Below are positions 1,874-15,770 of a DNA stretch of 43,600 nt, in pieces. The notes beneath the pieces are model-generated. The model saw nothing but the letters and a program-made list of their open reading frames with translations. It had not been told where the DNA came from and did no database searches. The stretch comes from Clostridia bacterium (GTDB lineage Bacteria > Bacillota > Clostridia > Oscillospirales > Acutalibacteraceae), in contig JAFUQS010000064.1 of assembly GCA_017472225.1 (NCBI GenBank), positions 1 through 43,600 on the forward strand. Direction: 5' to 3'. The position numbers and the translations under genes are program-made. Numbering within the stretch: the stretch's first letter is position 1; every line of letters begins with the position of its first letter.

Positions 1874-1905
1874 CACAGTCCGCATTCACTGAAATACGGA
1901 CTGTG
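1874..1905 (-). terminator. Terminator of the hdr-flx-frd-fum operon
   Basis: A 9-bp perfect stem, CACAGTCCG paired with CGGACTGTG, with a 14-nt loop lies nine bases beyond the stop of the PQ-loop gene. It is followed on the minus strand by GCTTTTGTT. It marks the 3' end of the long minus-strand operon. Confidence 0.75.
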
Positions 1906-1913
1906 TAATACTT

Positions 1914-2228
1914 TTATTTTTCTTCTGCTTCTCTTTGCTTGTCAAGTCTTGAGTTTCTGACATAAAGAATCATATCAATTGAAATTTCAACTATGTTGAG
2001 CACATAGAATGCCCATGCAAGATAGAAAAGCCATTCCTGATCCGGATTTGCCGTAACCTGAATAATTTTTCTTACGATACCGAAAACATAGCCTATCCAG
2101 ATAAACACCTCAAAAAAGACACTCTTGCCCTTTGCAGTTCTGGATTTATAGGATTTCATAATTGAAATTGGCCATGAAAGACCGAAGCAAAGAATCATCA
2201 GTGCTTCAAGAAGATCTGTAATCTGCAT
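1914..2228 (-). CDS. Small PQ-loop / SemiSWEET-like membrane protein
   Basis: A 104-residue protein with three predicted membrane helices and a charged C-terminal tail (LDKQREAEEK). The end of the first helix and the following loop (LSWPISIMKSYKSRTAKGKS) resemble the PQ-loop signature of SWEET/SemiSWEET and MtN3-type carriers, where a PQ-x-x-K-N-Y-K-x-K-S pattern is usual; here the PQ is PI. Length and topology fit a SemiSWEET half-transporter that works as a dimer. It sits 20 bp downstream of the fumarase beta subunit and is the last gene of the hdr-flx-frd-fum operon, with RBS AAGGAAG. Its substrate is unknown. Carriage of a C4-dicarboxylate or a stabilising role is possible but is context inference. 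Membership of the family is likely, not certain. Confidence 0.7.
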   Translation of the reverse strand: MQITDLLEALMILCFGLSWPISIMKSYKSRTAKGKSVFFEVFIWIGYVFGIVRKIIQVTANPDQEWLFYLAWAFYVLNIVEISIDMILYVRNSRLDKQREAEEK

Positions 2229-2248
2229 TTTAAAACACTTCCTTTTTA

Positions 2249-2806
2249 TTATTTTTTGCTGTTAAGATATTCTGCTCTGCCTTTTTCGTAAAGGTTGTTG
2301 CCTTCCGAATCGATGATAACCATCAAGGGCATATCCTCAACATAAAGCTTTCTGAGAGCTTCTGCACCAAGGTCCTCATAAGCGATAAGCTCTGCTGACT
2401 TGATGCATTTTGCAAGAAGTGCACCTGCACCGCCGATAGCACCGAAATATACACCTGTGTATTTCTTCATAGCTTCAACAACCTCAGGAAGTCTTGCGCC
2501 CTTGCCTATCATACCTCTTGCACCTACGCTCATCATTGTGGGTGCATAAGCGTCCATGCGTCCGCTTGTTGTGGGGCCTGCCGAGCCGATAACAGCTCCG
2601 GGCTTTGCGGGAGTGGGACCCACATAATAAATTGTTGCATTCATCGGGTCAATGGGAAGATCCTCACCACGGGCAAGTGCTTCGCACATTCTTTTGTGAC
2701 CGGCATCTCTTGAGGTGTAGATATAACCTGTGAGTAAAACTCTGTCGCCTGCTTTGAGAGTTTTTGCAATTTCCTCTGTAAGAGGTAATGTTATTTTCTT
2801 TTCCAT
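2249..2806 (-). CDS. Class I Fe-S fumarate hydratase, beta (C-terminal) subunit
   Basis: This 185-residue protein corresponds to the C-terminal domain of class I [4Fe-4S] fumarases and L(+)-tartrate dehydratase beta subunits. Characteristic stretches are GDRVLLTGYIYTSRDAGHKR near residue 20, the GPTPAKPGAVIGSAGPTTSGRMD region around 64-84, and GMIGKG at about 98-103. With the alpha subunit it interconverts malate and fumarate in the cytoplasm. The start codon follows the alpha stop (TAA) by one base, and its GGAGG lies within the last alpha codons, so the two are translationally coupled. Being next to fumarate reductase argues for fumarase rather than tartrate dehydratase. Confidence 0.92.
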   Translation of the reverse strand: MEKKITLPLTEEIAKTLKAGDRVLLTGYIYTSRDAGHKRMCEALARGEDLPIDPMNATIYYVGPTPAKPGAVIGSAGPTTSGRMDAYAPTMMSVGARGMIGKGARLPEVVEAMKKYTGVYFGAIGGAGALLAKCIKSAELIAYEDLGAEALRKLYVEDMPLMVIIDSEGNNLYEKGRAEYLNSKK

Positions 2807-2807
2807 T

Positions 2808-3650
2808 TTATATTACCTCCGACTTATGGCGTGTTACATGGCAGTTGATGTTGATTGCACAAGGCATACCTGCAATGTGTGTGGGCAGAGTTTCAATATT
2901 GAGACCGATTGCAGTTGTTTTGCCGCCGAAGCCCTGAGGACCAATGCCCAACTCGTTAATCTTCTGGAGCATTTCCTTTTCAAGGTCAGCATAATAGGGG
3001 TCAGGATTTTCCGAATCAACAGGTCTCATAAGTGCCTTCTTTGCAAGAAGAGCAGCCTTATCAAAGGTGCCGCCGATGCCCACACCCACAACCATGGGAG
3101 GACAAGGATTGGGGCCTGCTGTTTCAACAGTTTCAATGATAAAATCCTTAATACCCTGAAGACCTGCTGAAGGCTTGAACATACGGATTGCACTCATATT
3201 TTCACTGCCGAAGCCCTTAGGGCCAACAGTAATTTTAATGTTTTCACCGGGTACGATTTCTGTATAAATCATAGCGGGAGTGTTGTCACCTGTGTTACCT
3301 CTTCTTATCGGGTCCTTAACAACACTCTTTCTGAGATAACCGTTGGTGTAGCCTCTGCGGACACCCTCGTTTACGGCATCTGTAAGATTACCGCCGACAA
3401 TATGCACATCCTGACCGATTTCAAGGAAGACACAAGCCATACCTGTATCCTGACAGATGGGCACATTTTCATTGTCTGCAATTTCATAATTTTCAATGAT
3501 ATCGTCAAGAATACCCTTTGCAATTGCACCGTCTTCACAAGCACGGCAATTCTTAATTGCACACTTGACATCACCGGGAAGGTGACAGTTTGCATCAATG
3601 CAAAGCTTTTCAATCACCTCGGTAATAAGGTCTGTTTTAATTTCACGCAT
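2808..3650 (-). CDS. Class I Fe-S fumarate hydratase, alpha (N-terminal) subunit
   Basis: A 280-residue protein matching the N-terminal, cluster-binding part of class I fumarases. Candidate cluster ligands are visible in PICQDTGMACVF (about residues 63-74), in NPCPPMVVGVGIGGTFDKA near residue 180, and in the C-terminal CHVTRHKS. The conserved RRGNTGDNTPAMI stretch is also present. Together with the beta subunit it makes the oxygen-sensitive malate/fumarate hydro-lyase typical of strict anaerobes. It follows the FrdA gene by 14 bp in the same operon, which suggests malate is dehydrated to feed fumarate reductase. Confidence 0.93.
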   Translation of the reverse strand: MREIKTDLITEVIEKLCIDANCHLPGDVKCAIKNCRACEDGAIAKGILDDIIENYEIADNENVPICQDTGMACVFLEIGQDVHIVGGNLTDAVNEGVRRGYTNGYLRKSVVKDPIRRGNTGDNTPAMIYTEIVPGENIKITVGPKGFGSENMSAIRMFKPSAGLQGIKDFIIETVETAGPNPCPPMVVGVGIGGTFDKAALLAKKALMRPVDSENPDPYYADLEKEMLQKINELGIGPQGFGGKTTAIGLNIETLPTHIAGMPCAININCHVTRHKSEVI

Positions 3651-3664
3651 TCTCTTTTCACTCC

Positions 3665-5263
3665 TTATCTTTCGTGTCTTGCATATTTGGGAAGAAGCAT
3701 CGGTGAAGTTTTTCCCGTATCAATACCTGCCTTCTTCAATTCATCAGCATATGCAGAAATATGGTCAAGATTCATTGTGCCGATTTCAACCGTTCTGCTT
3801 TTTGCGGCTGCAGCCTTACCTGCATTACGGCCGAAAACGATAATATCAAGAAGTGAGTTACCCATAAGACGGTTTCTGCCGTGGATACCACCGACTGCTT
3901 CACCGGCAACAAGAAGATTTGAGATAGCCTTTGTAAAGCCGTCTCCACCGATTTCAAGGCCACCGTTCTGATAGTGAAGTGTGGGATAAACAAGAATGGG
4001 TTCTTTTCTCATATCAATGCCGTAGTTGAGATACATACGAAGCATTGCAGGAATTCTCTTTTCAATTGTACCTTCACCGCCAAGGATTTCAATCATCGGG
4101 GTGTCAAGCCATACGCCCTTGCCCTGAGGAGTGTCTACACCCTTACCTTCAGCACATTCACGGATAATTGCAGATGCGGAAACGTCTCTTGTTTCGAGGG
4201 GATGAGCATAAGCTTCGCCATCCTTGTTAACAAGCATGGCACCGAGTGAACGCACCTTTTCGGTTACGAGAGCACCAAAAAGCTGAGGAGGATAAGCAAC
4301 ACCCGTGGGATGATACTGAATTGTATCCTGATAAAGAAGGGGTGCGCCGAGTCTGTAGCCTAAAACAAGTCCGTCGGCTGTAGCACCGTAATGATTTGAT
4401 GTGGGGAAGTTCTGATAGTGAAGTCTGCCTGCACCGCCTGTTGCAATAACAACAGTCTTTGCTTTTGCCACAAGGTAATCCCCTGTTTCCATGTTAAGAA
4501 GCACTGCGCCTGCTACCTGACCCTTATCATCCTTGATAAGCTCAACGGCAGAGGTGAATTCAACAACGGGAATATTTCTGTTAAGCACCTCGTCACGAAG
4601 GTTACGCATGATTTCAGCACCTGAGTAGTCCTTACAGGCGTGCATTCTTTTTCTTGAAGTGCCGCCACCGTGAGTTGTGACCATTCTGCCATCCTCGTCT
4701 TTATCGAACATTACACCCAACTCATTGAGCCACTTGATAGCATCGGGGGCTTCCATAACAAGTCTTTTGAGAAGCTCAGGTCTTGCGGCAAAGTGTCCGC
4801 CGCCGAAAGCATCAAGATAATGCTGAACGGGAGAATCGTTTTCCTTGTCGGCAGCCTGAATACCGCCTTCTGCCATCATTGTGTTGGCATCGCCGATACG
4901 AAGCTTTGTGACCATAACGACCTTTGCACCTGCTTCATCAGCCTCAATAGCTGCAGAAGCACCTGCGCCGCCGCCACCGATAACAAGCACATCACAGTCA
5001 TAGTCAATTTTTGAAAGGTCAATATTTTCAGAAAGAAGAATCGAATTTGAATGAAGAAGCTCTGTCAGCTCCTTGGGAGCCTTCTGACCCTTATTGGGAC
5101 CTACCTTGATTTCTGCAAATCCGTCTGCTCTGTAATCAGGATGGAAGGCCTTGAGAAGGGCATCCTTTTCTTCTGCCGTCATTCTTTCAGGCTCTGTTTT
5201 CATTCTTTCTGCTCTTGTTTGTTCAACCTTTTTGATTGATTCACGCATTTCTGAAGTAAACAT
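3665..5263 (-). CDS. Soluble fumarate reductase flavoprotein subunit (FrdA/TfrA-like)
   Basis: The 532-residue protein has an N-terminal helical extension, then the FAD-binding GGGGAGASAA motif near residue 96. Fumarate-reductase active-site elements follow: HPTG at about 318-321, the arginine of ETRDVSASAI near 359, histidine in YPTLHYQNGG near 430, and GIHGRNRLMGNSLLD around 460. These match the catalytic Arg/His residues of the FrdA/SdhA family, so fumarate-to-succinate chemistry is well supported. Similarity is strongest in feel to the soluble TfrA-type enzymes, since no membrane anchor gene is present. I start it at 5,263 because AAGGAGGG lies seven bases upstream; an in-frame ATG at 5,287 would remove that site and overlap frdB. 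The acceptor is assigned by motif and the donor by context (adjacent FrdB and Flx-Hdr). Confidence 0.9.
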   Translation of the reverse strand: MFTSEMRESIKKVEQTRAERMKTEPERMTAEEKDALLKAFHPDYRADGFAEIKVGPNKGQKAPKELTELLHSNSILLSENIDLSKIDYDCDVLVIGGGGAGASAAIEADEAGAKVVMVTKLRIGDANTMMAEGGIQAADKENDSPVQHYLDAFGGGHFAARPELLKRLVMEAPDAIKWLNELGVMFDKDEDGRMVTTHGGGTSRKRMHACKDYSGAEIMRNLRDEVLNRNIPVVEFTSAVELIKDDKGQVAGAVLLNMETGDYLVAKAKTVVIATGGAGRLHYQNFPTSNHYGATADGLVLGYRLGAPLLYQDTIQYHPTGVAYPPQLFGALVTEKVRSLGAMLVNKDGEAYAHPLETRDVSASAIIRECAEGKGVDTPQGKGVWLDTPMIEILGGEGTIEKRIPAMLRMYLNYGIDMRKEPILVYPTLHYQNGGLEIGGDGFTKAISNLLVAGEAVGGIHGRNRLMGNSLLDIIVFGRNAGKAAAAKSRTVEIGTMNLDHISAYADELKKAGIDTGKTSPMLLPKYARHER

Positions 5264-5276
5264 ATGAATACCCTCC

Positions 5277-5951
5277 TTATTTCTCAATTTCTCTTGTGTT
5301 GTAGAGTTCTTTCATTTCCGTAATGGGCTTTTGCATAATCTTTTCAATCATATCATCATATGCGCCCTTGCGGATTTCTTCAACCCTTGCTTTAAGATGC
5401 TCTGTTTCGGGAGCGATATATTTGCCCACAAGACGCCTTGCGAGAAGACCTACCATGGGATGTGAAATTTCTGCGGGACATCTTACACTGCAGCAGCCAC
5501 AGGCTACACAGTCGAAGGATTCCTCTGCACACTTTTCAAACTCCCCTCTTTGTGCATATGCAATATACTGCATAACATTGAGGTCCTGTGTGCAAGCCTT
5601 TGTGCAGGCATTACAGCCGATACAACTGTAAATTTCGGGATAAAGCTCCATCATAATCTGCTGTGTTGGCTTGATATCATTGATGGAGTAGGTTCTCTTA
5701 TCTGTGGGGAAGAAGGGAATTGATGCAACATACATTCCGTCTTCAACCTGTTTCTGACAAGCAAGGCAGGTTTTGAGTGTGTTGTCTCCCTTGATTCTGT
5801 AAATTGTGGCACAAGCACCGCAGAAGCCATGACGGCAGCCACAGCCTCTTGAAAGGGTGTAGCCTGCATATTCCATAGCGGTCATAATTGTCATATCACC
5901 GGGTACTGAGTACTTTTTGCCGTAAAAATATACATTAACCATATTACTCAT
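5277..5951 (-). CDS. Fumarate reductase iron-sulfur subunit (FrdB-like)
   Basis: A 224-residue two-domain ferredoxin protein. An N-terminal [2Fe-2S] domain has cysteines at about 39, 44, 47 and 62. The C-terminal helical domain has CxxCxxCxxxC at 110-120 and a second CxxCxxCxxxCP at 148-159. This is the layout of FrdB/SdhB, although the second motif of canonical SdhB is usually a [3Fe-4S] site with quinone contacts; here both motifs look like full [4Fe-4S] binders. TfrB of methanogens has the same core plus a CCG domain, which is absent here. The gene lies between flxA and frdA, so it probably wires the Flx-Hdr complex to FrdA. No FrdC/FrdD anchor follows. Confidence 0.88.
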   Translation of the reverse strand: MSNMVNVYFYGKKYSVPGDMTIMTAMEYAGYTLSRGCGCRHGFCGACATIYRIKGDNTLKTCLACQKQVEDGMYVASIPFFPTDKRTYSINDIKPTQQIMMELYPEIYSCIGCNACTKACTQDLNVMQYIAYAQRGEFEKCAEESFDCVACGCCSVRCPAEISHPMVGLLARRLVGKYIAPETEHLKARVEEIRKGAYDDMIEKIMQKPITEMKELYNTREIEK

Positions 5952-5970
5952 TTTCTGTCAGTCCTTTCTC

Positions 5971-6825
5971 TTAATATTCATCGGGAAGTTCGTCAACTTC
6001 GTCGCAGCGGAAAACCGGGCCGTCCTTGCAGACATATTTTGAGCCGATATTGCAGCGTCCGCATTTACCCACGCCGCATTTCATACGAAGCTCAAGAGTT
6101 GTATATGCCTGAGTTTTGGTAAAGCCCATTTCCGTAAGCGCTCCGAGAACGAACTTTATCATAATCGGAGGACCGCAGACGAGTACGGTTTTGTCTGTTT
6201 TCATATTGAGCTCCTTCAGGTAAGACGGAACAAAGCCAACATGACCGTCCCAACCGTCCTGAGGTCTGTCAATTGTGAGATATACGTTTGTATCTCTGGC
6301 TTTCATCCATACCTCCTGAATTTCCTTGAGCTGAACAAGGTCATCAGCTGAACGTGAGCCGTAAAGAATATCAATTGTTCCGTAATCATCACGGTTATCA
6401 AGAACATAGTTGATAACGCTGCGAAGGGGTGCAAGGCCGATACCGCCGGCAACAAAAAGAAGATTTTTGCCTTTAAGCTCGGTATCAACGGGAAAGTTAT
6501 TTCCGTAAGGACCTCTTACCATAATTTCATCACCAACCTGAAGGTCGTGAAGATAATCTGTAAGAACGCCGCACTTTTTGATTGAAAACTCCTGAAAAAG
6601 CTTATTTGTGGGTGAAGATGTGATTGAGAACATCGCTTCACCGACACCGGGAACACAAAGCATTGCACATTGACCCGGCATATGCTCAAAAAGCTTGCCA
6701 CCCTCGGGAGCTTCAACTCTGAAGGTTTTGACATCGGGAGTTTCCTTACGGATATCTGTAATTACACCGACCATAGGAACAAGTGTATCTAATTTGTAAT
6801 TCTGATGGCAGGTACATTCGCTCAT
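5971..6825 (-). CDS. FlxA-like FAD/NAD(P)H oxidoreductase subunit
   Basis: The 284-residue protein belongs to the ferredoxin-NADP+ reductase / PyrK / AsrB group. It has a beta-barrel FAD domain (MFSITSSPTN in place of RxYS), an NAD(P) domain with GGIGLAPLRSVI near 128, and GPPIMIKFV near 219. A C-terminal [2Fe-2S] site follows (C-x4-C-x2-C-x8-C, starting CGVGKCGRC). In flxABCD-hdrABC clusters of sulfate reducers this subunit takes electrons from NADH. Here it overlaps flxB by four bases (ATGA) and precedes frdB, so the same job is likely. Hydrogenase or sulfite reductase association is unlikely because their catalytic genes are missing. Confidence 0.87.
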   Translation of the reverse strand: MSECTCHQNYKLDTLVPMVGVITDIRKETPDVKTFRVEAPEGGKLFEHMPGQCAMLCVPGVGEAMFSITSSPTNKLFQEFSIKKCGVLTDYLHDLQVGDEIMVRGPYGNNFPVDTELKGKNLLFVAGGIGLAPLRSVINYVLDNRDDYGTIDILYGSRSADDLVQLKEIQEVWMKARDTNVYLTIDRPQDGWDGHVGFVPSYLKELNMKTDKTVLVCGPPIMIKFVLGALTEMGFTKTQAYTTLELRMKCGVGKCGRCNIGSKYVCKDGPVFRCDEVDELPDEY

Positions 6826-7853
6826 TTTGAATTAACCTCCTTACTGAAAGCCTTAATAACCTTGACAATGTTGGTTGATGCGGGGCACTTGTCAACACAT
6901 CTGCCACAGCCTACGCAGGAATACATACCGTCGTTGTTGGCAGGGAAATAAACAAGCTTATGCATAAATCTCTGACGGAAGCGCTGCATCTGACTTGTTC
7001 TGTTATTACCGTGAGCCATCATTGTGAAGTCGGAATACATACATGAGTCCCAGCAGCGATATCTCTGAACGCCTGAGCCTGTATCATAGTCCTTAAGGTC
7101 ATAGCATTGGCAGGTGGGACAAACGAAGGTACAGGTACCGCAAGCAAGGCAGGGCTTATAAAGCTCCTTCCAAAGCTCTGAGCCGAACTTTTCGTTTGTT
7201 GCATCTCCGTGCCAGGATTCAAGTGAAAGGTCTGCATAGGGAAGACGTGAGAGAATGGCTTTGATGCTTTCCTTTTCTTCTTCAACTGCAGCTTCATCTG
7301 CATCGGTGAGAAGCTCTGAGCAGAGTGCTGTGAGCCTTTCGCCTTTTTCTGTGTTAGCTTTCCAATAAAGATATTCACCCTTGAACCAGGTTGTTACATC
7401 ACCCTCCGGCTCTGTGGGGTCAACGCCGAAGGTGGTACAAAAGCAGCTTTCCTCCGGCTCCGAGCAAGCAAGAGCAACGATGATACCATGATTTCTTCTT
7501 GCTTCATAAAAGGAGTCAACGGGAGAAGAAAGAAATACTCTGTCAAGAACCTGTGCACCCTTGATGTCACAGCCTCTGACACCGAAAAGGACAAAGTCTT
7601 CACCTTCAAGCTCCTGCTGTGTGATTTTGATTTTTCTGTTTTCTTTTGTAACGGTATAAAGTGTTTCGCTCTGAGGGAAAAAGGCTTCCTTTGAACTTTT
7701 CACCGTTTTAAGTGTATCAAGGTCAACTCTGCTGTCGGCAGCATAAATGCCGTAATTGGTCTGACCCGCTTTTTTTATGGGGATATATAATCTTTGACCG
7801 GAGGAAATAAGGTCAAAAAGCTGTTTAAGATTCTCTCTTTTAATCTTCTTCAT
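6822..7853 (-). CDS. FlxB-like (AsrA/HydB-like) 4Fe-4S dicluster protein
   Basis: A 343-residue protein of the anaerobic sulfite reductase A / hydrogenase beta-like family. The N-terminal part has the family's GVRGCDIKGAQVLDRVF segment near residue 92. The C-terminal part has two ferredoxin motifs: CLACGTCTFVCPTCQC around 235 and CVGCGRCVDKCPAS around 315. It should pass electrons between the FAD subunit (FlxA) and the FlxC/FlxD-Hdr branch. The stop overlaps the flxA start, so the subunits are translated together. The FlxB naming rests on gene order and family resemblance. Confidence 0.85.
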   Translation of the reverse strand: MKKIKRENLKQLFDLISSGQRLYIPIKKAGQTNYGIYAADSRVDLDTLKTVKSSKEAFFPQSETLYTVTKENRKIKITQQELEGEDFVLFGVRGCDIKGAQVLDRVFLSSPVDSFYEARRNHGIIVALACSEPEESCFCTTFGVDPTEPEGDVTTWFKGEYLYWKANTEKGERLTALCSELLTDADEAAVEEEKESIKAILSRLPYADLSLESWHGDATNEKFGSELWKELYKPCLACGTCTFVCPTCQCYDLKDYDTGSGVQRYRCWDSCMYSDFTMMAHGNNRTSQMQRFRQRFMHKLVYFPANNDGMYSCVGCGRCVDKCPASTNIVKVIKAFSKEVNSK

Positions 7854-7859
7854 TTTGTC

Positions 7860-8825
7860 TTATCTCCTTTCTTCGGCTTCCATATCGTCAAGTGTATAAT
7901 CAGTCAGAGGACTCGTCTGTCCGATATCCTCACCCGCCTGAAATACACCGTAATATTCGTTGATATCCTTGATGAACTTCCGGTTGAACAGGTGAAGAGG
8001 AATTCCCTGGGGACATACTCTTGAACATTCACCGCAGTCTGTGCATCTGCCTGCAACGTGGAAGGCACGGATAATATGGAACATGCTTTCATGGAAGGGG
8101 TCAACATTTGCCTTCTGCTCGCTGTCAAACTTTGTTGAATCGAACACACACTTTCTGCATGAGCAAGCGGGACAGACATTTCTGCAGGCATTACATCTGA
8201 TGCATTTTGAAAGCTCTCTCTGGAAATAAGTGAATTTATCCTCTGAAGTGAGATTTTCAATAATTTCAACATCTGTAAAGCGGTCTGCATCAAGTGTATC
8301 TGCACTTTCGAGCATGAGCTCATCATAAATCATATGCTCCTTGCCCTTGCAGACGTGACATCTTTCAAGCATTGAATCTTTATAGGATACTGTCTTTTCG
8401 CCGTAAAGTGTTTCAACCTTAAGCTCGTTACAGTCGCCGTCAATTTCAGCACCCTTGATATCTGTGATACCCTTGACACCCTGTGCCTTGATTGCATCAA
8501 GTGAAAGCTTACCCTTGCAGCCTATACCGATGATATAAGCCTTTTCACGGATAACTCTGTGCTCTTTTATAAGCTGATTGAAGGAATATGTGTCGCAGGG
8601 CTTGAGAAGAACTGCTGTCACGCCCTCAAGATTTGATGCCTTAATCATATATTTTGAAAGGTTTGCACCGCAGAAGCCGTCATAAACGAATTCGCTGAGT
8701 TCTTCTGCGCTGTTGAAATAAGCGGGCTCGGGATTAAAGGTGAAATCGCCTTTTTTCCAGCCGAGTACACGCTGAACGCTTCCGCTTTCCAAAAGCTCTT
8801 TTAAACGGGAAATCAGTTCTTGCAT
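7860..8825 (-). CDS. FlxC-like 4Fe-4S protein
   Basis: A 321-residue protein whose first 200 residues lack recognisable cofactor motifs but resemble the F420-hydrogenase beta-like fold (FVYDGFCGANLSKY, LLKPCDTYSFNQL). The C-terminal third has two ferredoxin motifs, CIRCNACRNVCPACSCRKC and CTDCGECSRVCPQGIP. The order MvhD-like, this gene, FlxB, FlxA is that of Flx clusters read in reverse from hdrA. It overlaps flxD by 13 bases and is six bases from flxB. Its role is most simply an electron conduit within the complex. Confidence 0.82.
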   Translation of the reverse strand: MQELISRLKELLESGSVQRVLGWKKGDFTFNPEPAYFNSAEELSEFVYDGFCGANLSKYMIKASNLEGVTAVLLKPCDTYSFNQLIKEHRVIREKAYIIGIGCKGKLSLDAIKAQGVKGITDIKGAEIDGDCNELKVETLYGEKTVSYKDSMLERCHVCKGKEHMIYDELMLESADTLDADRFTDVEIIENLTSEDKFTYFQRELSKCIRCNACRNVCPACSCRKCVFDSTKFDSEQKANVDPFHESMFHIIRAFHVAGRCTDCGECSRVCPQGIPLHLFNRKFIKDINEYYGVFQAGEDIGQTSPLTDYTLDDMEAEERR

Positions 8826-9253
8826 CTCAAATCCCCCAATCTTACGTTTTTACCAAGTGAGCGTACGGTTTCAACAAACTCGTTCATTGTCTGTGAGAAT
8901 TTCACGCCCTCAGCTGCGCTGACCCATTCAACACGGGTTCTGCCTCTTTCAATGCCCACATAGTCAAGCATTGAGAAAAGAAGTGTCATTCTTCTTCTTG
9001 CATAATAGTTACCTGTGCTGTAATGGCAGTCACCGGGGTGACAGCCACAGATGATAACACCGTCTGCACCCTTTTCAAAGGCACGGAGAATAAACATCGG
9101 GTTAACTCTGCATGAGCAAGGCACACGGATAATTTTTACGTCGGCAGGATAAGAAAGTCGGCTGCTGCCCGCAAGGTCAGCACCTGCATATGAACACCAG
9201 TTGCAACAAAAAGCCACAATTTTAGGTCTGAATTCTTCATTTGTTAACGACAT
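8813..9253 (-). CDS. MvhD/FlxD-like iron-sulfur subunit
   Basis: A 146-residue protein of the MvhD family, which docks an electron-input module onto HdrA. The family hallmarks are present: FCCNWCSYAGADLAG near the N-terminus, IRVPCSCRVNP, and GCHPGDCHYSTGNYYARRR near the middle. These cysteines hold one [2Fe-2S] cluster in studied homologues. I start at 9,253 because a GGAGGTGG site lies just upstream; the longer open frame to 9,352 reads through the end of hdrA. The ten-base overlap with hdrA suggests translational coupling. Without MvhA/G it is expected to bridge Flx rather than a hydrogenase. Confidence 0.9.
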   Translation of the reverse strand: MSLTNEEFRPKIVAFCCNWCSYAGADLAGSSRLSYPADVKIIRVPCSCRVNPMFILRAFEKGADGVIICGCHPGDCHYSTGNYYARRRMTLLFSMLDYVGIERGRTRVEWVSAAEGVKFSQTMNEFVETVRSLGKNVRLGDLRCKN

Positions 9254-11232
9254 ATAGCATCCACCTCCGCAATAATCTGTCTGTTTGAGAAGCCCTGAAG
9301 GTCCATAACACCTGAGGGACAAGCAACGGTACAAGCACCGCAGCCCTGACAAAGTGCACTGTTGACAACGGCAACTCTGTGAGTTTTTCTGATACCGTGG
9401 TCATTGATGAGCTTATCCTCATAGGAGATTGCACCGTAAGGACATACATTCGCACAAGCTGAGCAGCCGTTACAAAGAAGCTCGTCTGCCTTTGCCGTGC
9501 AGGGATTGGTCATAAGCTTATCTTTGGCAAGAAGTCCCACAACCTTAATTGCGGCGGCACCTGCCTGTGAAACAGTTTCGGGGATATCCTTCGGTCCCTG
9601 GCATACACCTGAAAGGAATACACCTGCTGTGGGAGATTCAACGGGACGAAGCTTCGGGTGAGCCTCTGTGAGGAAGTTGTTTGTGTCAATACTTGCCGTA
9701 AGCATTGTTGCAATATTTCTTACCGTAGGATTAGGTTCAATTGCCGCAGCAAGAACGACCATATCTGCGCTGATTTTAAGCTGCTTTCCGTCAATAAGGT
9801 CAACGCCGTGAACAAGAAGTGAGCCGTCAGCCTGAGGAGCAACCTTACCCACCTGACCTTTGACGTAATTTACGCCGTATTCCTCAACAGCTCTTCTGTA
9901 AAACTCGTCAAAGTTCTTACCGGGAGTACGGACATCAATATAGAAAACAGTAACATTTACATCGGGATACTTATCTCTTATAAGCATTGCGTGCTTTGCT
10001 GTGTACATACAGCAAATTTTTGAGCAATAGCTCTTACCCTTATTTTCAGCACAGCGTGAGCCGACACATTGAATGAACACGATGTTCTTCGGGGGTTTGC
10101 CGTCGGAAAGACGTTCAAGGTGTCCCTTTGTGGGGCCTGCCGCATTCATAATTCTTTCAAGCTCGAGGGAAGTGATAACGTCCTTGCTCTGTGAATAGGC
10201 ATATTCATCATAGTTATCAAGCTTAATAACCTCAAAGCCGGTTGCAACAACAATTGCACCGTATTTCTGAGTGATAACCTCATCCTTCTGCTTATAGTCA
10301 ATTGCACCTGCCTGGCAGAATTTTTCGCAGACACCGCATTTGCCTGTTTTAAGCTTAATGCATTGTGTGGGGTCAATAACGGGTACATTGGGAATTGCCT
10401 GTGCAAAGGGAGTGTAGATAGCCGGGCGGTTACTCAGTCCGCTGTTGAATTCACTTTTTGCCTTTTTGCTGGGGCATTTCTCCATACACACACCGCAGCC
10501 GGTGCATTTATCCATATTGACATATCTTGCTTTTTTTCTTATTTCAACGGTGAAATCACCGACAAAGCCGGAAACCTTTTCAACCTCACTGTAGGTATAA
10601 AGGTTAATCTTCTCATGAGCTGCCGCATCAACCATTTTCGGTGTAAGAATACATGCAGAGCAGTCAAGAGTGGGGAAGGTTTTGTCAAGCTGAGCCATTT
10701 TACCGCCGATTGAAGGTGTTTTTTCAACAATATCCACTTCATAGCCTGCATCGGCAATGTCAAGAGCAGTCTGGATACCTGCAATACCGCCACCGATAAC
10801 AAGGGCACGCTTTATAACTCCGCTTTCCCCTGCTTCAAGAGAGGTGTTAAGGTTAACCTTAGCAATTGCAGCTCTTGTGAGAATAACTGCCTTCTCGGTA
10901 CCTTCCTCAATGTCCTTATGAATCCATGAGCATTGCTCACGAAGGTTTGCAATTTCAACCATATAGGGGTTGAGACCTGCTTTTTCGGCACATTTTCTGA
11001 AGGTTGCCTCATGCATTCTCGGTGAGCAGGAGCAGACAACGATACCGGAAAGATTCTTTTCCTTGATTGCCTGTGCAATCTTTTCCTGACCGGCTTCTGA
11101 GCACATATACTGATAATCTTCAGCGTGAACAACACCCGGCTCAAGCTTTGCCATTTCAACAACTTTTTTTACGTCAACCGTTGCAGCAATGTTGCTGCCG
11201 CAATGGCAGACAAATACTCCTATTCCGTGCAT
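9244..11232 (-). CDS. hdrA: Heterodisulfide reductase subunit A (flavin-bifurcating HdrA)
   Basis: A full-length 662-residue HdrA. From the N-terminus: an FVCHCG motif (7-12), CSCSPRMHE (67-75), a Rossmann FAD site GGGIAGIQTAL (147-157), LDCSACILTPKMV (189-201), an inserted ferredoxin (C243-x2-C-x2-C-x3-C and a second cysteine set near 290-310), and two C-terminal [4Fe-4S] motifs at about 587-598 and 628-638. In characterised methanogen and Flx-Hdr enzymes this flavin splits an electron pair between HdrB and ferredoxin. All domains needed for bifurcation are present, so this is not a degenerate homologue. It is in the middle of the operon between hdrC and flxD. Confidence 0.93.
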   Translation of the reverse strand: MHGIGVFVCHCGSNIAATVDVKKVVEMAKLEPGVVHAEDYQYMCSEAGQEKIAQAIKEKNLSGIVVCSCSPRMHEATFRKCAEKAGLNPYMVEIANLREQCSWIHKDIEEGTEKAVILTRAAIAKVNLNTSLEAGESGVIKRALVIGGGIAGIQTALDIADAGYEVDIVEKTPSIGGKMAQLDKTFPTLDCSACILTPKMVDAAAHEKINLYTYSEVEKVSGFVGDFTVEIRKKARYVNMDKCTGCGVCMEKCPSKKAKSEFNSGLSNRPAIYTPFAQAIPNVPVIDPTQCIKLKTGKCGVCEKFCQAGAIDYKQKDEVITQKYGAIVVATGFEVIKLDNYDEYAYSQSKDVITSLELERIMNAAGPTKGHLERLSDGKPPKNIVFIQCVGSRCAENKGKSYCSKICCMYTAKHAMLIRDKYPDVNVTVFYIDVRTPGKNFDEFYRRAVEEYGVNYVKGQVGKVAPQADGSLLVHGVDLIDGKQLKISADMVVLAAAIEPNPTVRNIATMLTASIDTNNFLTEAHPKLRPVESPTAGVFLSGVCQGPKDIPETVSQAGAAAIKVVGLLAKDKLMTNPCTAKADELLCNGCSACANVCPYGAISYEDKLINDHGIRKTHRVAVVNSALCQGCGACTVACPSGVMDLQGFSNRQIIAEVDAICR

Positions 11233-11236
11233 CTGC

Positions 11237-11629
11237 TCACCTCCTGAACTTTCTGAATGCGCTGACTAAAAGCTGCTGAGGCATATCTTCATCAATAAGC
11301 TCAGGAATTTCGTCAGGCACAAGGTAGCTGCCACCTTTTTCTCTTATAACAATCTGTCTTGCAGCGTCAACAATTTTGCCCGGCTTAACATCTCTCGGGC
11401 ATCTTTCAACACAAGCAAAGCAGGAAAGGCAAACCCAGAGAGAGTCGCACTTTGCAAGAGATTCAACATCTTCGTTAATTACATAGGACACAAACTGATG
11501 AGGCTTGATGTCCATTTTTTCATATGAAGGGCATGAAGCTGAGCATTTGCCGCACTTCATACATTTCAGAGGATTGGTTCCGCTGATTTCTTTCACCATT
11601 TCGCTGCGGCTTTTCTTAGAAGCTTCCAT
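11237..11629 (-). CDS. hdrC: Heterodisulfide reductase subunit C (HdrC)
   Basis: A 130-residue protein with two [4Fe-4S] motifs, CMKCGKCSASCP near residue 23 and CLSCFACVERCP near 66, in the helical HdrC fold. It passes electrons from HdrA to the CCG domains of HdrB. The start at 11,629 is chosen because AAGGAGGAGG lies upstream, inside the end of hdrB; a longer in-frame start at 11,668 has no such site. It overlaps hdrB by 14 bases, showing tight coupling. Confidence 0.92.
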   Translation of the reverse strand: MEASKKSRSEMVKEISGTNPLKCMKCGKCSASCPSYEKMDIKPHQFVSYVINEDVESLAKCDSLWVCLSCFACVERCPRDVKPGKIVDAARQIVIREKGGSYLVPDEIPELIDEDMPQQLLVSAFRKFRR

Positions 11630-12422
11630 TTGCGTCAACCTCCTCCTTAACACCGAGAGCCTCCGCAAGAAGCTCTGTGAAATAAATTACGGGCACATCT
11701 GACTGTGCATTCTTTGTAAGATTATACTGACAAAGAGGGCAGGCCGTGATAAGCATTTCCGCTTCAAAGCTTTCTGCGCTGTTCATAACAGTATCGCACA
11801 TATTCTTTGAAAGCTCCTTATCCTTAAGAGAGATATATCCGCCGCAGCACTCGTTACGGTAGGGATATATAACAGGCTCTGCGCCCAAGGCACGGATAAG
11901 ATTTTCCATTACGGTGGGGTTTTCAGGGTTGTCAAAACCGAGAATTTCTGAGGGGCGAAGAAGAAGGCAACCGTAATAAGCACCGATTTTTCTGCCTGTG
12001 AGCGGCTTCACAACCTTTTTCTTCACTTCGTCAAAGCCTATTCTGTCACGGAGAACTTCAAGAAAATGAAGAACCTCTGTTTCGCCAAGGTAAGGCTCGT
12101 CAAGCTTCATATAGTTGTTTGCTCTCAATCTGATGTCCTCAACATTTCTCATATCATCGTTGACTCTTTTAACAACATGATAACAAGCCGAACAGAGAGT
12201 AACAAGCTCCTGACCCTTCACCTTAGCTTCGTTGAGAGCTCTGACAGAAGAAAGCTTTGATGCGATTTCATCACCCGACAAGGGATAAACACCGCCGCAG
12301 CACTGCCAATTTTCGATTTCTTCCATTTCGAAGCCAAGTACCTTTGCCGATGCTCTTGCATAAGCATCAAGCTTTTTAGCTTTGGTTCTTAAGGTACAAC
12401 CCGGATAATAACTGTACTTCAT
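11616..12422 (-). CDS. hdrB: Heterodisulfide reductase subunit B (HdrB), two intact CCG domains
   Basis: The 268-residue protein has two complete CCG motifs: C9-x31-C41-C42-x34-C77-x2-C80 and C152-x39-C192-C193-x34-C228-x2-C231. In characterised HdrB these ten cysteines bind two non-cubane [4Fe-4S] clusters that reduce a disulfide. All are present, so the active site appears competent. It is the first gene of the operon, with RBS GAAAGGAT. The organism should not make CoM/CoB, so the acceptor is unknown: a small-molecule or protein disulfide, or electrons relayed to the neighbouring fumarate reductase. Confidence 0.93.
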   Translation of the reverse strand: MKYSYYPGCTLRTKAKKLDAYARASAKVLGFEMEEIENWQCCGGVYPLSGDEIASKLSSVRALNEAKVKGQELVTLCSACYHVVKRVNDDMRNVEDIRLRANNYMKLDEPYLGETEVLHFLEVLRDRIGFDEVKKKVVKPLTGRKIGAYYGCLLLRPSEILGFDNPENPTVMENLIRALGAEPVIYPYRNECCGGYISLKDKELSKNMCDTVMNSAESFEAEMLITACPLCQYNLTKNAQSDVPVIYFTELLAEALGVKEEVDANGSF

Positions 12423-12544
12423 ACATCTATGATCCTTTCTTTTTGATTTCTGCGGTTTTTAACCGCACCATGTTGAGCCCCGTACCTTGCGTTTCTCTGT
12501 TCTTCTCCAACTTTTTTGGTCGCAAAACACCAACATAGTTTATT

Positions 12545-12573
12545 CGTATAATTGTAACATTTTTTTATGTCAA
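12545..12573 (-). promoter_or_regulatory. Promoter of the hdr-flx-frd-fum operon
   Basis: TTGACA (12,568-12,573), a 17-base spacer and TATACG (12,545-12,550) on the minus strand. The leader is about 115 nt and includes a short hairpin GCGGTT-AAA-AACCGC near 12,452-12,466 just ahead of the hdrB ribosome binding site. The -10 differs from consensus in its last two bases. Confidence 0.65.
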
Positions 12574-12670
12574 TATCAATCGAAAAAATCGGGTTTTTTC
12601 GTGGAATTTTTACAGTTAATCGGCTTCGGTTTTGTGCATGATAACAGTGATATATAAGCCTTGATATTGT

Positions 12671-12770: not shown

Positions 12771-13796
12771 TTATCTCTGAACTCTGCCTGAGCCGTCGCC
12801 GCCGGCAAGCTTTTCAACCTCTGAAACACCAACACGGTTGTAGTCGCCTTCAATTGAATGCTTGAGAGCTGAAGCTGCAACTGCAAATTCAATTGCTGAC
12901 TGAGTATCCTTGCCTGAAAGAAGAGAGTAGATAAGACCGCCGCCAAAGCTGTCACCACCGCCTACACGGTCAACAATGTGAAGGTGATATTCCTTTGAGA
13001 AGCAATAGTTTTCGCCGTCGTAAAGCATACCTGCCCAATCATTGTCTGAAGCTGAAATTGATGAACGAAGTGTAATTGCAACCTTTTCAAAGCCAAAGGT
13101 ATCCTTAAGCTGCTTTGCAACTGACTTATAGCCTTCCTTATCAAGCTTGCCGCCGTAAATATCGGTGTTTTCTGCTTCAATGCCGAAAACATCCTTTGCA
13201 TCTTCTTCATTTGAAATGCAGACGTCAACATATTTGCAAAGCTCTGTCATAGCCTTTCTTGCTTCCTCTCTTGTCCAGAGCTTACCTCTGTAGTTAAGGT
13301 CACAGGAAATCTTAACTCCCTTTTCCTTAGCCTTTTTACAAGCGTCAAGGCAAATTTCAACAAGGTTGCCGCCAAGAGCCGGTGTGATACCTGTGAAATG
13401 GAACCAATCTGCACCGTCAAAAATCTTATCCCAATCGAAATCCTCTCTTGCTGCTTGCTGAATTGATGAGTGAGCTCTGTCATAAATACAAACTGAGCCA
13501 CGCTGTGAAGCACCCTTTTCAAGATAATAAATACCTACTCTGTCGCCGCCTCTTACAACATCCTTTGTGTCAACGCCGAGAGCACGAAGAGAGTTGATTG
13601 CAGCCTGACCGATTGCGTGTGAGGGAAGCTTTGTTACATAGGAAGCGTCCATACCGTAATTAGCAAGAGATACGGCAACATTTGCTTCACCGCCGCCGAA
13701 GGTAGCCTGCATCTTATCGTTCTGGAAGAAACGGTAGTAGCCTTCCGGAGCGAGGCGGAGCATAATTTCACCAAAGCATACAATTTTCTTACTCAT
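12771..13796 (-). CDS. kdgK: 2-keto-3-deoxygluconate kinase (PfkB family)
   Basis: The 341-residue protein is a ribokinase/PfkB-family sugar kinase. It has the N-terminal substrate motif GGGEANVAVSLANYG (about 34-48), SCDLNYRGKLW near 165, and the C-terminal ATP/anion-hole motif DRVGGGDSFGGGL, where Gly replaces the usual Ala of GAGD. The C-terminal NRVGVSEVE stretch is typical of KDG kinases. It phosphorylates 2-keto-3-deoxygluconate to KDPG, the step between mannonate dehydratase and the aldolase encoded next to it. RBS AGAGGTAA precedes the start. Last gene of the operon. Confidence 0.9.
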   Translation of the reverse strand: MSKKIVCFGEIMLRLAPEGYYRFFQNDKMQATFGGGEANVAVSLANYGMDASYVTKLPSHAIGQAAINSLRALGVDTKDVVRGGDRVGIYYLEKGASQRGSVCIYDRAHSSIQQAAREDFDWDKIFDGADWFHFTGITPALGGNLVEICLDACKKAKEKGVKISCDLNYRGKLWTREEARKAMTELCKYVDVCISNEEDAKDVFGIEAENTDIYGGKLDKEGYKSVAKQLKDTFGFEKVAITLRSSISASDNDWAGMLYDGENYCFSKEYHLHIVDRVGGGDSFGGGLIYSLLSGKDTQSAIEFAVAASALKHSIEGDYNRVGVSEVEKLAGGDGSGRVQR

Positions 13797-13838
13797 TTTA
13801 ATTTACCTCTTTCTAAAGCAGATTTTCTTAAGTTTAGT

Positions 13839-14786
13839 TTATTTTGTTTCAATACAGATTTCAAAGCCTGCAACTGTGTTTTTAAGACCGAAGCAGGTTA
13901 CATTGCCCTTTTTGTCATACCAGATATCCGGGTCAATTTCTGCGCCGAGTCTTTCAAGATAAGCCTTTGCACGGTTGCCGTTGAGAGTTGAAATTACAAT
14001 ACAGCCCTTTGCGCCGCAATCATCGTGCATAAAGGAAACTGCACCTGCTGATACGCCGTTTTCTGTTTCTTTATATTCAAAGCCGAAAAGAGAGCAAAGA
14101 AGCTTTGCATCTGCCTTTGAGCTTTCTTTATCGCCGTAAATAACAACAGAATCAAGCTTGAAGCCAAGCATTGTTTTAATAGCATCCTTGCAATTCTGTG
14201 TAATTACATCCCAATTACCCTCTGCAATATCTGAGCTTTTTGCAATCCAGGTTCCGCCACAGGCAAGGATACGGTCAAAGGAAAGATAATCATTGAGATT
14301 TTTTGTGTTTACACCGCCTGTGGGCATCCATTTTGCAGCCTGATAAGGACCCGCAAGAGCCTTAAGCTTGTTAACACCACCGTTTGCTTCAGCAGGGAAG
14401 AACTTGATGTTTGTAAGTCCCATACTCATCGCCTGTTCCATTTCGCCGGGTGTTGCTGCGCCGGGCATCATAGGAATACCTGTTGACTTGATATATGCAA
14501 TCATTTCGGGGTTGAAGCCGGGGGTAACAACAAACTTTGCGCCTGCCTTGATAGCTCTGTCGCACTGCTCTTTTGTCAGAACTGTACCTGCACCGACAAG
14601 AACATCAGGACATTCTTCGCTGATTCTTCTGATAGCTTCTTCAGCAGCTGCTGTTCTGAAGGTAATTTCTGCAGCAGGAAGTCCGCCGTCACGAAGTGCC
14701 TTTGCAAGGGGTACTGCCTTGTCAGCATCGTCAATAGCAACAACGGGAATAATACCTAATTCGTAAATAGTTTTAAACATATCCAT
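13839..14786 (-). CDS. eda: KDPG / 2-keto-4-hydroxyglutarate aldolase with C-terminal VOC-like domain
   Basis: The first ~210 of 315 residues are a class I KDPG aldolase: the Glu of AAEITFRT, VVTPGFN and the Schiff-base lysine in NIKFFPAE are all visible. The remaining ~105 residues (from about LDSVVIYGDKE) look like a glyoxalase/VOC-type module, an addition I recall in clostridial Eda proteins; its purpose is unclear. The enzyme splits KDPG to pyruvate and glyceraldehyde 3-phosphate. I start at 14,786, where AGGAGAT is correctly spaced; the longer frame to 14,837 is unsupported. A hairpin (ATGTGC-AGAAG-GCACAT, 14,818-14,834) lies in the 120-bp gap upstream and may be an RNA-processing site. 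Confidence 0.9.
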   Translation of the reverse strand: MDMFKTIYELGIIPVVAIDDADKAVPLAKALRDGGLPAAEITFRTAAAEEAIRRISEECPDVLVGAGTVLTKEQCDRAIKAGAKFVVTPGFNPEMIAYIKSTGIPMMPGAATPGEMEQAMSMGLTNIKFFPAEANGGVNKLKALAGPYQAAKWMPTGGVNTKNLNDYLSFDRILACGGTWIAKSSDIAEGNWDVITQNCKDAIKTMLGFKLDSVVIYGDKESSKADAKLLCSLFGFEYKETENGVSAGAVSFMHDDCGAKGCIVISTLNGNRAKAYLERLGAEIDPDIWYDKKGNVTCFGLKNTVAGFEICIETK

Positions 14787-14906
14787 TTTAAATTCATCTC
14801 CTATTGAGTAGTAAGTAATGTGCAGAAGGCACATCATTTTGTTTCCATTGGTTCAGCGGGTACATTTTACCCTTTCATCGCCCTATCGAGGACAATTTTA
14901 TATTTA

Positions 14907-15758
14907 TTAAACTCCTGAGTATGATGAGAATCCACCGTCAACAGGAAGCACTACACCGGTAATGAAGCCTGCTGCATCATTGTTGACAAGGAAAAGAAGT
15001 GCACCGTCAAGCTCCTTTGCTTCACCGAAGCGTCCCATAGGAGTTGCAGCAAGAATTTTACCTGTTCTTGCTGTGGGTGAGCCATCGGGATTCCAGAGAA
15101 GTGCAGCGTTCTGCTTTGTTGAGAAAAATCCGGGAGCAATTGCATTAACACGGATTCCTTCCTTTGAGAAGTGAACTGCAAGCCATTGTGTGAAATTTGA
15201 AACGGCAGCCTTTGCACCTGAATAGGCAGGAATTTTTGTTAAGGGAGTAAAAGCGTTCATTGATGAAACATTGATGATGTTACAGCCCTCTCTGCCGAGC
15301 ATCTGCTGAGCAAAAGCCTGTGTGGGAATAAGTGTACCCAGGAAGTTGAGGTTGAAAACAAAGCCTACTCCGTCTGCGTCAAGATTGAAGAAATTTTTGC
15401 AATCTTCATCAATATCGCCGGGGAAATAATATTCCTTATCAGTTGTGGCTCTGGGGTTGTTACCGCCTGCGCCGTTAATGAGAATATCGCATTTGCCAAG
15501 GTCTGCTTCAACTGCCGAAGCTACTGCAAGGCAGCTTTCCTTTTCAAGCACATTGCACTTATATGCCTTTGCAACACCGCCTTCAGCCGTAATTTCATCT
15601 GCATAGCTTTTTGCTGCCTCTTCATTGATATCAAGCAGAGCAACCTTAGCACCTGCTCTTGCAAGTGTTTTTGCAAAGCCTGAGCAAAGCACTCCGCCTG
15701 CACCTGTTACAACAGCAACCTTACCTGTAAGGTCTGTGCCGAGTACGTTTTTAATCAT
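14907..15758 (-). CDS. uxuB: SDR-type D-mannonate oxidoreductase (fructuronate reductase)
   Basis: A 283-residue short-chain dehydrogenase/reductase. The NAD(P) motif is TGAGGVLCSGFA (18-29), NGAGG lies near 94, and the catalytic triad is seen in INVSSMNAF and PAYSGAKAAV (Ser, Tyr, Lys). The Bacillus-type UxuB that reduces fructuronate to mannonate is an SDR of this kind, unlike the larger E. coli enzyme. Its place between uxuA and the aldolase/kinase pair makes that reaction the natural assignment. Substrate specificity is inferred from the operon. Confidence 0.86.
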   Translation of the reverse strand: MIKNVLGTDLTGKVAVVTGAGGVLCSGFAKTLARAGAKVALLDINEEAAKSYADEITAEGGVAKAYKCNVLEKESCLAVASAVEADLGKCDILINGAGGNNPRATTDKEYYFPGDIDEDCKNFFNLDADGVGFVFNLNFLGTLIPTQAFAQQMLGREGCNIINVSSMNAFTPLTKIPAYSGAKAAVSNFTQWLAVHFSKEGIRVNAIAPGFFSTKQNAALLWNPDGSPTARTGKILAATPMGRFGEAKELDGALLFLVNNDAAGFITGVVLPVDGGFSSYSGV

Positions 15759-15770
15759 TTCGCTTCCTCC

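Follow-up and report, generated by a model that had tools for sequence, protein, structure and literature searches.

Why would the genes for an NADH-oxidizing heterodisulfide reductase system, Flx-Hdr, stand in one operon with a fumarate reductase and a fumarase? The question is raised by a window of 43,600 nucleotides, the whole stretch of DNA that was analyzed (assembly GCA_017472225.1, contig JAFUQS010000064.1, positions 1 to 43,600), from a Clostridia bacterium of the family Acutalibacteraceae whose nearest relatives come from animal guts. Twelve genes on its minus strand, from 12422 to 1914, form one string in the order hdrB-hdrC-hdrA-flxD-flxC-flxB-flxA-frdB-frdA-fumA(alpha)-fumA(beta) followed by a PQ-loop-like gene. 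This string, with its order and strand, had been proposed in an earlier sequence-only reading and is confirmed by open reading frames, family matches and gene junctions. The operon probably encodes a soluble, NADH-dependent, electron-bifurcating fumarate reductase together with the fumarase that would feed it.

In the proposed mechanism, hydride from NADH would be taken by FlxA, and electrons would pass through FlxB/C and FlxD to the flavin adenine dinucleotide (FAD) of HdrA. Each pair would be split there, such that one electron reduces ferredoxin and the other reaches the two CCG clusters in HdrB by way of HdrC. HdrB would then pass electrons to FrdB, in place of reducing a free disulfide or DsrC, and FrdA would reduce fumarate to succinate at a FAD site of the non-covalent type. 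Reduced ferredoxin could be reoxidized by Rnf or by a [FeFe] hydrogenase, and energy would be conserved as succinate is formed, with no need for a membrane-bound reductase. We infer each of the main elements of this scheme from the genes: the single complex, its internal electron path, the direct transfer from HdrB to FrdB, the direction and the bifurcation itself.

The linkage of the genes within the window's class supports this reading. FrdB and HdrA profiles were used to search a sample of 393 genomes of this class. The FrdB profile gave 54 full-length matches (E ≤1e-85), followed by a gap and then, from 1e-11 upward in E, by incomplete matches, most of which are RnfC-sized. The HdrA profile, taken at E up to 1e-60 with at most three candidates scored per genome, matched 59 genomes, including all 54 with FrdB; among the five that lack FrdB, G019 has a full-length HdrA (771 bits) and the other four matches are pieces of larger proteins. 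In the window and the 53 other loci that were fetched, frdB adjoins hdr or flx genes in every case (54 of 54 genomes). All nine core genes are present in 46 of the 53 fetched loci, with 45 in the window's order and one with frdBA first, and the seven incomplete loci each break off at a contig border where the missing genes would lie. The 80 nearest named loci, which include Blautia, Dorea, Mediterraneibacter, Anaeromassilibacillus and ruminant Oscillospiraceae, give a similar picture: 68 have all nine core genes, and the other 12 have a contig end within 238 bases on the missing-gene side. Presence is patchy, given that profile searches found neither FrdB nor HdrA in the eight other sampled genomes of the family to which the window belongs.

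The genes that flank the operon in the class, of which one or two members per group were scanned and the others assigned by similarity, concern C4 acids. A gene of the lactate/malate dehydrogenase family precedes the operon in 27 of the 53 loci, and all 27 products have R at the specificity position, which we take to mark the malate type. On this residue a lactate dehydrogenase was rejected, despite the two scanned proteins that also exceed L-lactate dehydrogenase cut-offs. A class II fumarase precedes the operon in 21 loci and a class I fumarase lies on the same strand within the stretch in 15; the two never occur together, some fumarase is present in 36 of the 53, and 30 loci with at least 3 kb of room downstream have no class I fumarase there. 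The exchange of one fumarase for an unrelated one within this operon is a strong argument for fumarate as the substrate. In 25 loci frdA is followed by an AspT-family permease gene, and in three Rex is encoded downstream. Outside the class, genes near frdB include those for malic enzyme, pyruvate carboxylase and fumarase.

The operon and its signals are laid out as follows, in the direction of transcription.

12551..12579, minus strand: promoter-like site, TTGATA-17-TACAAT, second hexamer preceded by TG, 10 of 12 positions matching
11616..12422, minus strand: hdrB, 268 residues, two CCG sites (C9, C41, C42, C77, C80; C152, C192, C193, C228, C231)
11237..11629, minus strand: hdrC, about 130 residues, 4Fe-4S dicluster protein, overlapping the end of hdrB
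9244..11232, minus strand: hdrA, 662 residues, FAD and 4Fe-4S motifs
8813..9253, minus strand: flxD/mvhD, 146 residues, FlpD family PF02662
7860..8825, minus strand: flxC, 321 residues, 4Fe-4S dicluster protein, named from order and motifs
6822..7853, minus strand: flxB, 343 residues, Fer4_22, similar to AsrA and sulfhydrogenase beta
5971..6825, minus strand: flxA, 284 residues, FAD/NAD reductase with 2Fe-2S domain, similar to AsrB and sulfhydrogenase gamma
5277..5951, minus strand: frdB, 224 residues, [2Fe-2S] C39, C44, C47, C65 and [4Fe-4S] motifs C110-C120 and C148-C158
3665..5263, minus strand: frdA, 532 residues, fumarate reductase flavoprotein, FAD site of non-covalent type (N127), N-terminal domain 1-88
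2808..3650, minus strand: fumA alpha, class I fumarase, 280 residues
2249..2806, minus strand: fumA beta, C-terminal part of class I fumarase, 185 residues, PF05683
1914..2228, minus strand: small membrane-type protein, PQ-loop-like according to the sequence-only reading, 104 residues
1874..1905, minus strand: terminator-like hairpin, 14 pairs

Adjacent genes overlap by 4 to 14 bases or are separated by at most 20, given a start of hdrC at the internal ATG at 11629 that was picked by eye. A plausible ribosome-site leader stands ahead of each of the 11 genes, all but hdrC, whose leaders were inspected. One promoter and one terminator had been claimed for the string. The hairpin bears out the terminator, and a promoter-like site does exist at 12579-12551 but is weak by itself, as 28 such sites occur in 14.5 kb versus 23.4 (standard deviation 4.4) in shuffles. 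With promoter-like sites not enriched over shuffles, it is mostly gene spacing that argues for transcription as a single unit. The gene for the 104-residue protein, which had no match in a Pfam search, is sporadic, occurring on the same strand in 7 of the 53 class loci and 11 of the 80 near loci.

Upstream, kdgK closes with its own terminator-like hairpin at 12755-12725, and it also precedes the operon in loci L002, L003 and L009. Positions 12771-18226 hold uronate-catabolism-like genes that were named by eye: glucuronate isomerase, mannonate dehydratase, an oxidoreductase, 2-keto-3-deoxy-6-phosphogluconate aldolase and 2-keto-3-deoxygluconate kinase. Downstream, beyond the operon terminator, a gene for a CitMHS/ArsB-type transporter lies on the same strand (236-1609), with a perfect TTGACA-17-TATAAT promoter-like site of its own at 1841-1813; the transporter could carry a C4 acid.

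All seven subunit types of FlxABCD-HdrABC are found in the operon, with the Flx subunits named from gene order, motifs and presumed relatives; no Flx family model matched the window's proteins in family-model searches. HdrB has two CCG sites with five Cys each, and all ten are invariant in 12 sequences; both sites had been read correctly, but the ten Cys are the total for the two and not the number in each. The matches of HdrB in the PDB are HdrB subunits. The FAD and cluster motifs ascribed to HdrA are upheld by its translation, by family matches and by an alignment of 15 sequences, in which the FAD domain and Cys cluster motifs are invariant. Elsewhere in the phylum sample described below, many HdrA genes have one in-frame TGA. 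In the three that were checked (L224, L225 and L226, from genomes G616, G405 and G584), the TGA replaces the Cys of a DCSAC motif, at window position 194, where the window's HdrA has Cys; this is as expected for selenocysteine. In a few otherwise complete operons (L112 / L019, genome G151; L071; L077), hdrA seems split in two, possibly as a pseudogene or through an assembly error.

FrdA, of which the window's genome (91% complete) has a single match, aligns with complex II flavoproteins from residue 88 to about 500. HPTG, TE, Arg-Asp, His and Arg are kept, to which we assign the catalytic roles that these motifs presumably have, and the earlier statement on the HPTG, Arg and His residues holds in this alignment. 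Asn127 aligns with the His of Escherichia coli SdhA that bears covalent FAD. The N-terminal 88 residues are conserved and were present in 12 examined loci of several partner types, and found no credible match among Pfam or PDB sequences. The FrdA model has a predicted local distance difference test (pLDDT) score of 63.4, ten-residue blocks across residues 1-90 score about 65 to 94, and Foldseek matches the model to Frd/Sdh folds. L-aspartate oxidase was considered for FrdA and rejected: it scores lower than TfrA, and the HPTG and TE motifs are kept.

Across 13 sequences, the four [2Fe-2S] Cys of FrdB and its two CxxCxxCxxxC motifs do not vary. The sequence-only reading had noted neither these two clusters nor the Asn127 and N-terminal domain of FrdA. 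The iron-sulfur subunit of complex II has one such cluster and a [3Fe-4S] cluster, whereas FrdB instead has two CxxCxxCxxxC clusters; motif and family searches found neither the [3Fe-4S] pattern of complex II nor a CCG domain in it. Homology to RnfC or to carbon monoxide dehydrogenase was set aside for FrdB, as it is limited to the 4Fe-4S part and lies far below the 54 full-length matches. No membrane anchors adjoin frdBA, as judged from the neighborhood; anchor and quinone genes elsewhere were not searched for.

Fumarate had been suggested as the high-potential acceptor of this Flx-Hdr, and a role of this kind is supported by linkage in the class, the C4-acid neighbors, the two kinds of fumarase and the search for DsrC. 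The absence of DsrC, claimed from the operon, extends to the window's genome, and the protein is over the cut-off in none of the 54 FrdB genomes, with one weak match below the cut-off in G117. RnfC is over its cut-off in 33 of the 54 and FeFe hydrogenase in 52, in both cases including the window's genome, and reduced ferredoxin can therefore be reoxidized. Ferredoxin has a potential of about -420 mV. With -320 mV for NADH and +33 mV for fumarate, as given in the part of PMC5861303 available, the energy estimate for two NADH per fumarate is 68 - 19, or about 49 kJ per mol released.

Outside the class, the association is looser. In a sample of 398 genomes of the phylum, FrdB is present in 39, the window's and 38 others. 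Flx-Hdr is adjacent at five of the 38 frdB loci, four with frdBA first and one in a third arrangement, where hdrC and hdrB have changed places. Eleven have hdrC-hdrB-hdrA with a second large HdrA, mvhD and an iron-sulfur protein, or a truncated or variant version of this set. Five have hdrC-hdrB-frdB(-frdA) without hdrA, and all ten CCG Cys of HdrB are kept in each of the five. TfrB of methanogens is a fusion that carries a CCG domain, and together with the hdrC-hdrB-frdB units it suggests HdrB as the contact of FrdB. Regular separation of frdBA from hdr-flx in relatives had been named as one finding that would refute the proposal: it is not seen in the class, with unlinked genes in 0 of the 54 genomes, but is partly borne out in other classes, in which 33 of the 38 loci lack an adjacent full Flx-Hdr. 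A universally strict linkage was dropped on these counts. Linkage is strict in the window's class only, and neither module needs the other everywhere.

HdrA is lacking at the locus in 22 of the FrdB genomes, 18 of which have it elsewhere. The 13 of these 18 loci that were read all hold hdrA with flxD, flxC and flxB; the corresponding region in G019, a class genome without FrdB, holds flxD alone of these three. Eight loci (L188, L191-L194, L198, L199 and L201) have a different frdBA operon, with two HdrA of about 650 and 1,050-1,100 residues, mvhD, an iron-sulfur protein of about 370 residues or more and, in five of the eight, a malic enzyme-like gene. No flxA or flxB matches were found in these operons, which possibly encode another bifurcating fumarate reductase.

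Gene trees are compatible with more than one history. In a quick tree of FrdA with 88 rows, from which 11 of 99 were left out as a whole FrdA was not recovered, the Flx-Hdr label, assigned by hand, needs five changes. For 31 selected loci, quick trees of FrdA and of HdrA have their deep splits in common: a double-HdrA group that includes L196, a group with frdBA first, and a main group that includes L162 and L163. These trees would fit an association that is old and in which the input module was later lost or replaced, and repeated assembly is also compatible with them. Inside the main group, L127 (genome G037) is placed differently by the two proteins, with FrdA at 73% and HdrA at 85% to the window, a mismatch that suggests recombination within the operon.

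Several points, none of them biochemical, weigh against a bifurcating complex that reduces fumarate. Linkage in an operon alone does not prove one complex. HdrA, HdrB and HdrC match the NCBIfam Hdr models but score below cut-offs, which were made for methanogen-type subunits. The predicted structure of FrdB was unusable, with a mean pLDDT of 36.7 from an alignment of 20 close homologs, and RnfC is not found over the cut-off in 21 of the 54 genomes. At 17 of the 38 loci outside the class, several of them truncated by a contig end, no Hdr set stands alongside frdB, and of the 22 genomes whose locus lacks HdrA, four have no such protein elsewhere either; therefore, FrdBA can take electrons from elsewhere. 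Three of the 17 loci have weak HdrC-like matches, and the 17 include cases with malic enzyme and with pyruvate carboxylase (three). Conversely, HdrA is present in 35 of the 39 FrdB genomes and also in 91 of the 359 without FrdB (E up to 1e-200, at most three candidates scored per genome), showing that Flx-Hdr is not inherently a fumarate reductase module. A Fisher value for the co-occurrence takes no account of relatedness and is not counted as evidence.

A wider formulation, which we hold tentatively, accommodates these loci. FrdBA may be a general soluble cassette with an N-terminal domain of its own and exchangeable inputs, namely Flx-Hdr, HdrCB alone, the double-HdrA set or cytochromes. 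Among the 17 loci without an Hdr set, NrfH-like cytochrome genes are found at L202 and L207, and an HdrC-like protein that weakly matches cytochrome b at L206 and L209. In many gut Clostridia, HdrB would wire the cassette into a bifurcating NADH dehydrogenase, a link from metal cluster to metal cluster between HdrB and FrdB would replace the disulfide substrate of Hdr, and the whole might be a main quinone-free route to succinate and reduced ferredoxin.

The sequence-only reading was aware of no enzyme already described with these subunits, a statement that does not stand, since both the set and the hypothesis were published in 2019-2020, as the available text of PMC7282089 makes clear. That text describes a "succinate operon" of Pseudoclostridium thermosuccinogenes (CDQ83_RS03365-RS03315) with fumarase, Flx-Hdr (RS03360-30), fumarate reductase (RS03325-20) and a possible transporter, which is up about 4-fold under CO2 limitation, if not significantly for every subunit. 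Fumarate reduction is assumed there to be linked to ferredoxin reduction, with a 2019 preprint cited (PMC7282089). From the gene lists, that operon is similar to the window's in that it unites Flx-Hdr, two Frd genes and fumarase; the fumarase, however, is one locus tag at one end, whereas in the window it is encoded by two class I genes at the opposite end. The 2019 preprint is reportedly that of Koendjbiharie and van Kranenburg. No biochemical proof of such coupling was found in the literature, with subscription papers mostly uncovered.

All seven subunit types of the FlxABCD-HdrABC of Desulfovibrio, reportedly described by Ramos et al. in 2015, are also in the window. The second acceptor in Desulfovibrio is most likely DsrC, according to the part of PMC10920352 available; the window instead has FrdAB linked, and DsrC was not found over the cut-off. 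In Thioflavicoccus and tubeworm symbionts, flxABCD-hdrABC occurs with tfrAB and korABCD, and a complex was proposed in the accessible part of PMC6315080. As described there, fumarate reductase genes lie among Flx-Hdr genes as they do in the window; unlike the window's bacterium, these are Gammaproteobacteria with a reductive tricarboxylic acid cycle and 2-oxoglutarate oxidoreductase genes.

The TfrAB of methanogens and the window's enzyme are alike in that fumarate reduction is joined to a CCG protein, and the window's FrdA is nearest TfrA (342.6 bits versus a cut-off of 718). TfrB, however, combines an iron-sulfur part and a CCG domain in a single chain, whereas FrdB and HdrB are separate; the TfrB model gives 31.7 of 385 bits, and the window's HdrB matches the C-terminal part of that model. 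Against the 8-methylmenaquinol:fumarate reductase SdhABE, HdrB scores below the SdhE-type anchor cut-off (151.5 of 500 bits). Complex II and quinol:fumarate reductase share the catalytic HPTG, TE, Arg, His and Arg with FrdA, but the covalent-FAD His and the [3Fe-4S] cluster of complex II are in neither FrdA nor FrdB. Finally, Hydrogenobacter thermophilus is said to have a soluble NADH-dependent fumarate reductase (Miura et al. 2008) of five subunits with scattered genes, and is thus reportedly similar to the enzyme proposed here in being soluble, NADH-dependent and of more subunits than FrdAB; we know of no Flx-Hdr in it.

The alternative that survives best is that Flx-Hdr and FrdAB are separate enzymes with a diffusible thiol/disulfide carrier between them, similar to the thiol:fumarate reductase of methanogens. 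CCG sites reduce heterodisulfide in methanogens, and HdrB retains both; TfrA is the best-scoring model for FrdA, and hdrCB-frdB units do occur without hdrA. Such a carrier is nonetheless unlikely, as FrdB has no CCG domain, such that FrdAB alone should not oxidize a thiol, and as neither DsrC over the cut-off (0 of 54) nor a carrier gene among the annotated recurring neighbors was found, some neighbors having been left unannotated.

Given that electron transfer from NADH to fumarate is exergonic by itself, the operon might instead encode a soluble NADH:fumarate reductase without bifurcation, in which Hdr-Flx is a plain wire and ferredoxin is not reduced. We consider this quite unlikely in view of the FAD domain and Cys clusters of HdrA, kept and invariant in 15 sequences; HdrA of bifurcating enzymes has such a domain and such clusters.

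It is improbable that the genes are only transcribed together, with another donor for FrdAB and another acceptor for Flx-Hdr, both being wanted when NADH is in excess. The occurrence of FrdBA with cytochrome-like genes, pyruvate carboxylase or malic enzyme, the four FrdBA genomes without such HdrA and the HdrA of FrdB-less genomes (91 of 359) would fit such a case, but the 54 of 54 linkage spans more than one layout in the class, the deep splits of the two trees agree, and no alternative acceptor was found. A complex that runs mainly in reverse, oxidizing succinate and reduced ferredoxin to make NADH by confurcation, is very improbable given the fermentative C4 context (mdh, fumarase and permease), the unfavorable potential of fumarate and what the non-covalent-type FAD site would imply, even if Flx-Hdr is assumed to be reversed in fermenting Desulfovibrio in the part of PMC10920352 available.

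A bifurcating, NADH-dependent fumarate reductase is thus the reading that we prefer. What is new here is evidence on the spread, linkage and modularity of a kind of enzyme that was already proposed. Its spread and exchangeable inputs provide several gene sets that bear on direct transfer from HdrB to other iron-sulfur subunits. If the reading is true, flavin-based electron bifurcation would have fumarate as a terminal acceptor, and many gut Clostridia would conserve energy as they form succinate, with no membrane-bound reductase involved. This would matter for how succinate, hydrogen and propionate flow through the gut and rumen, and for Clostridia as producers of succinate.

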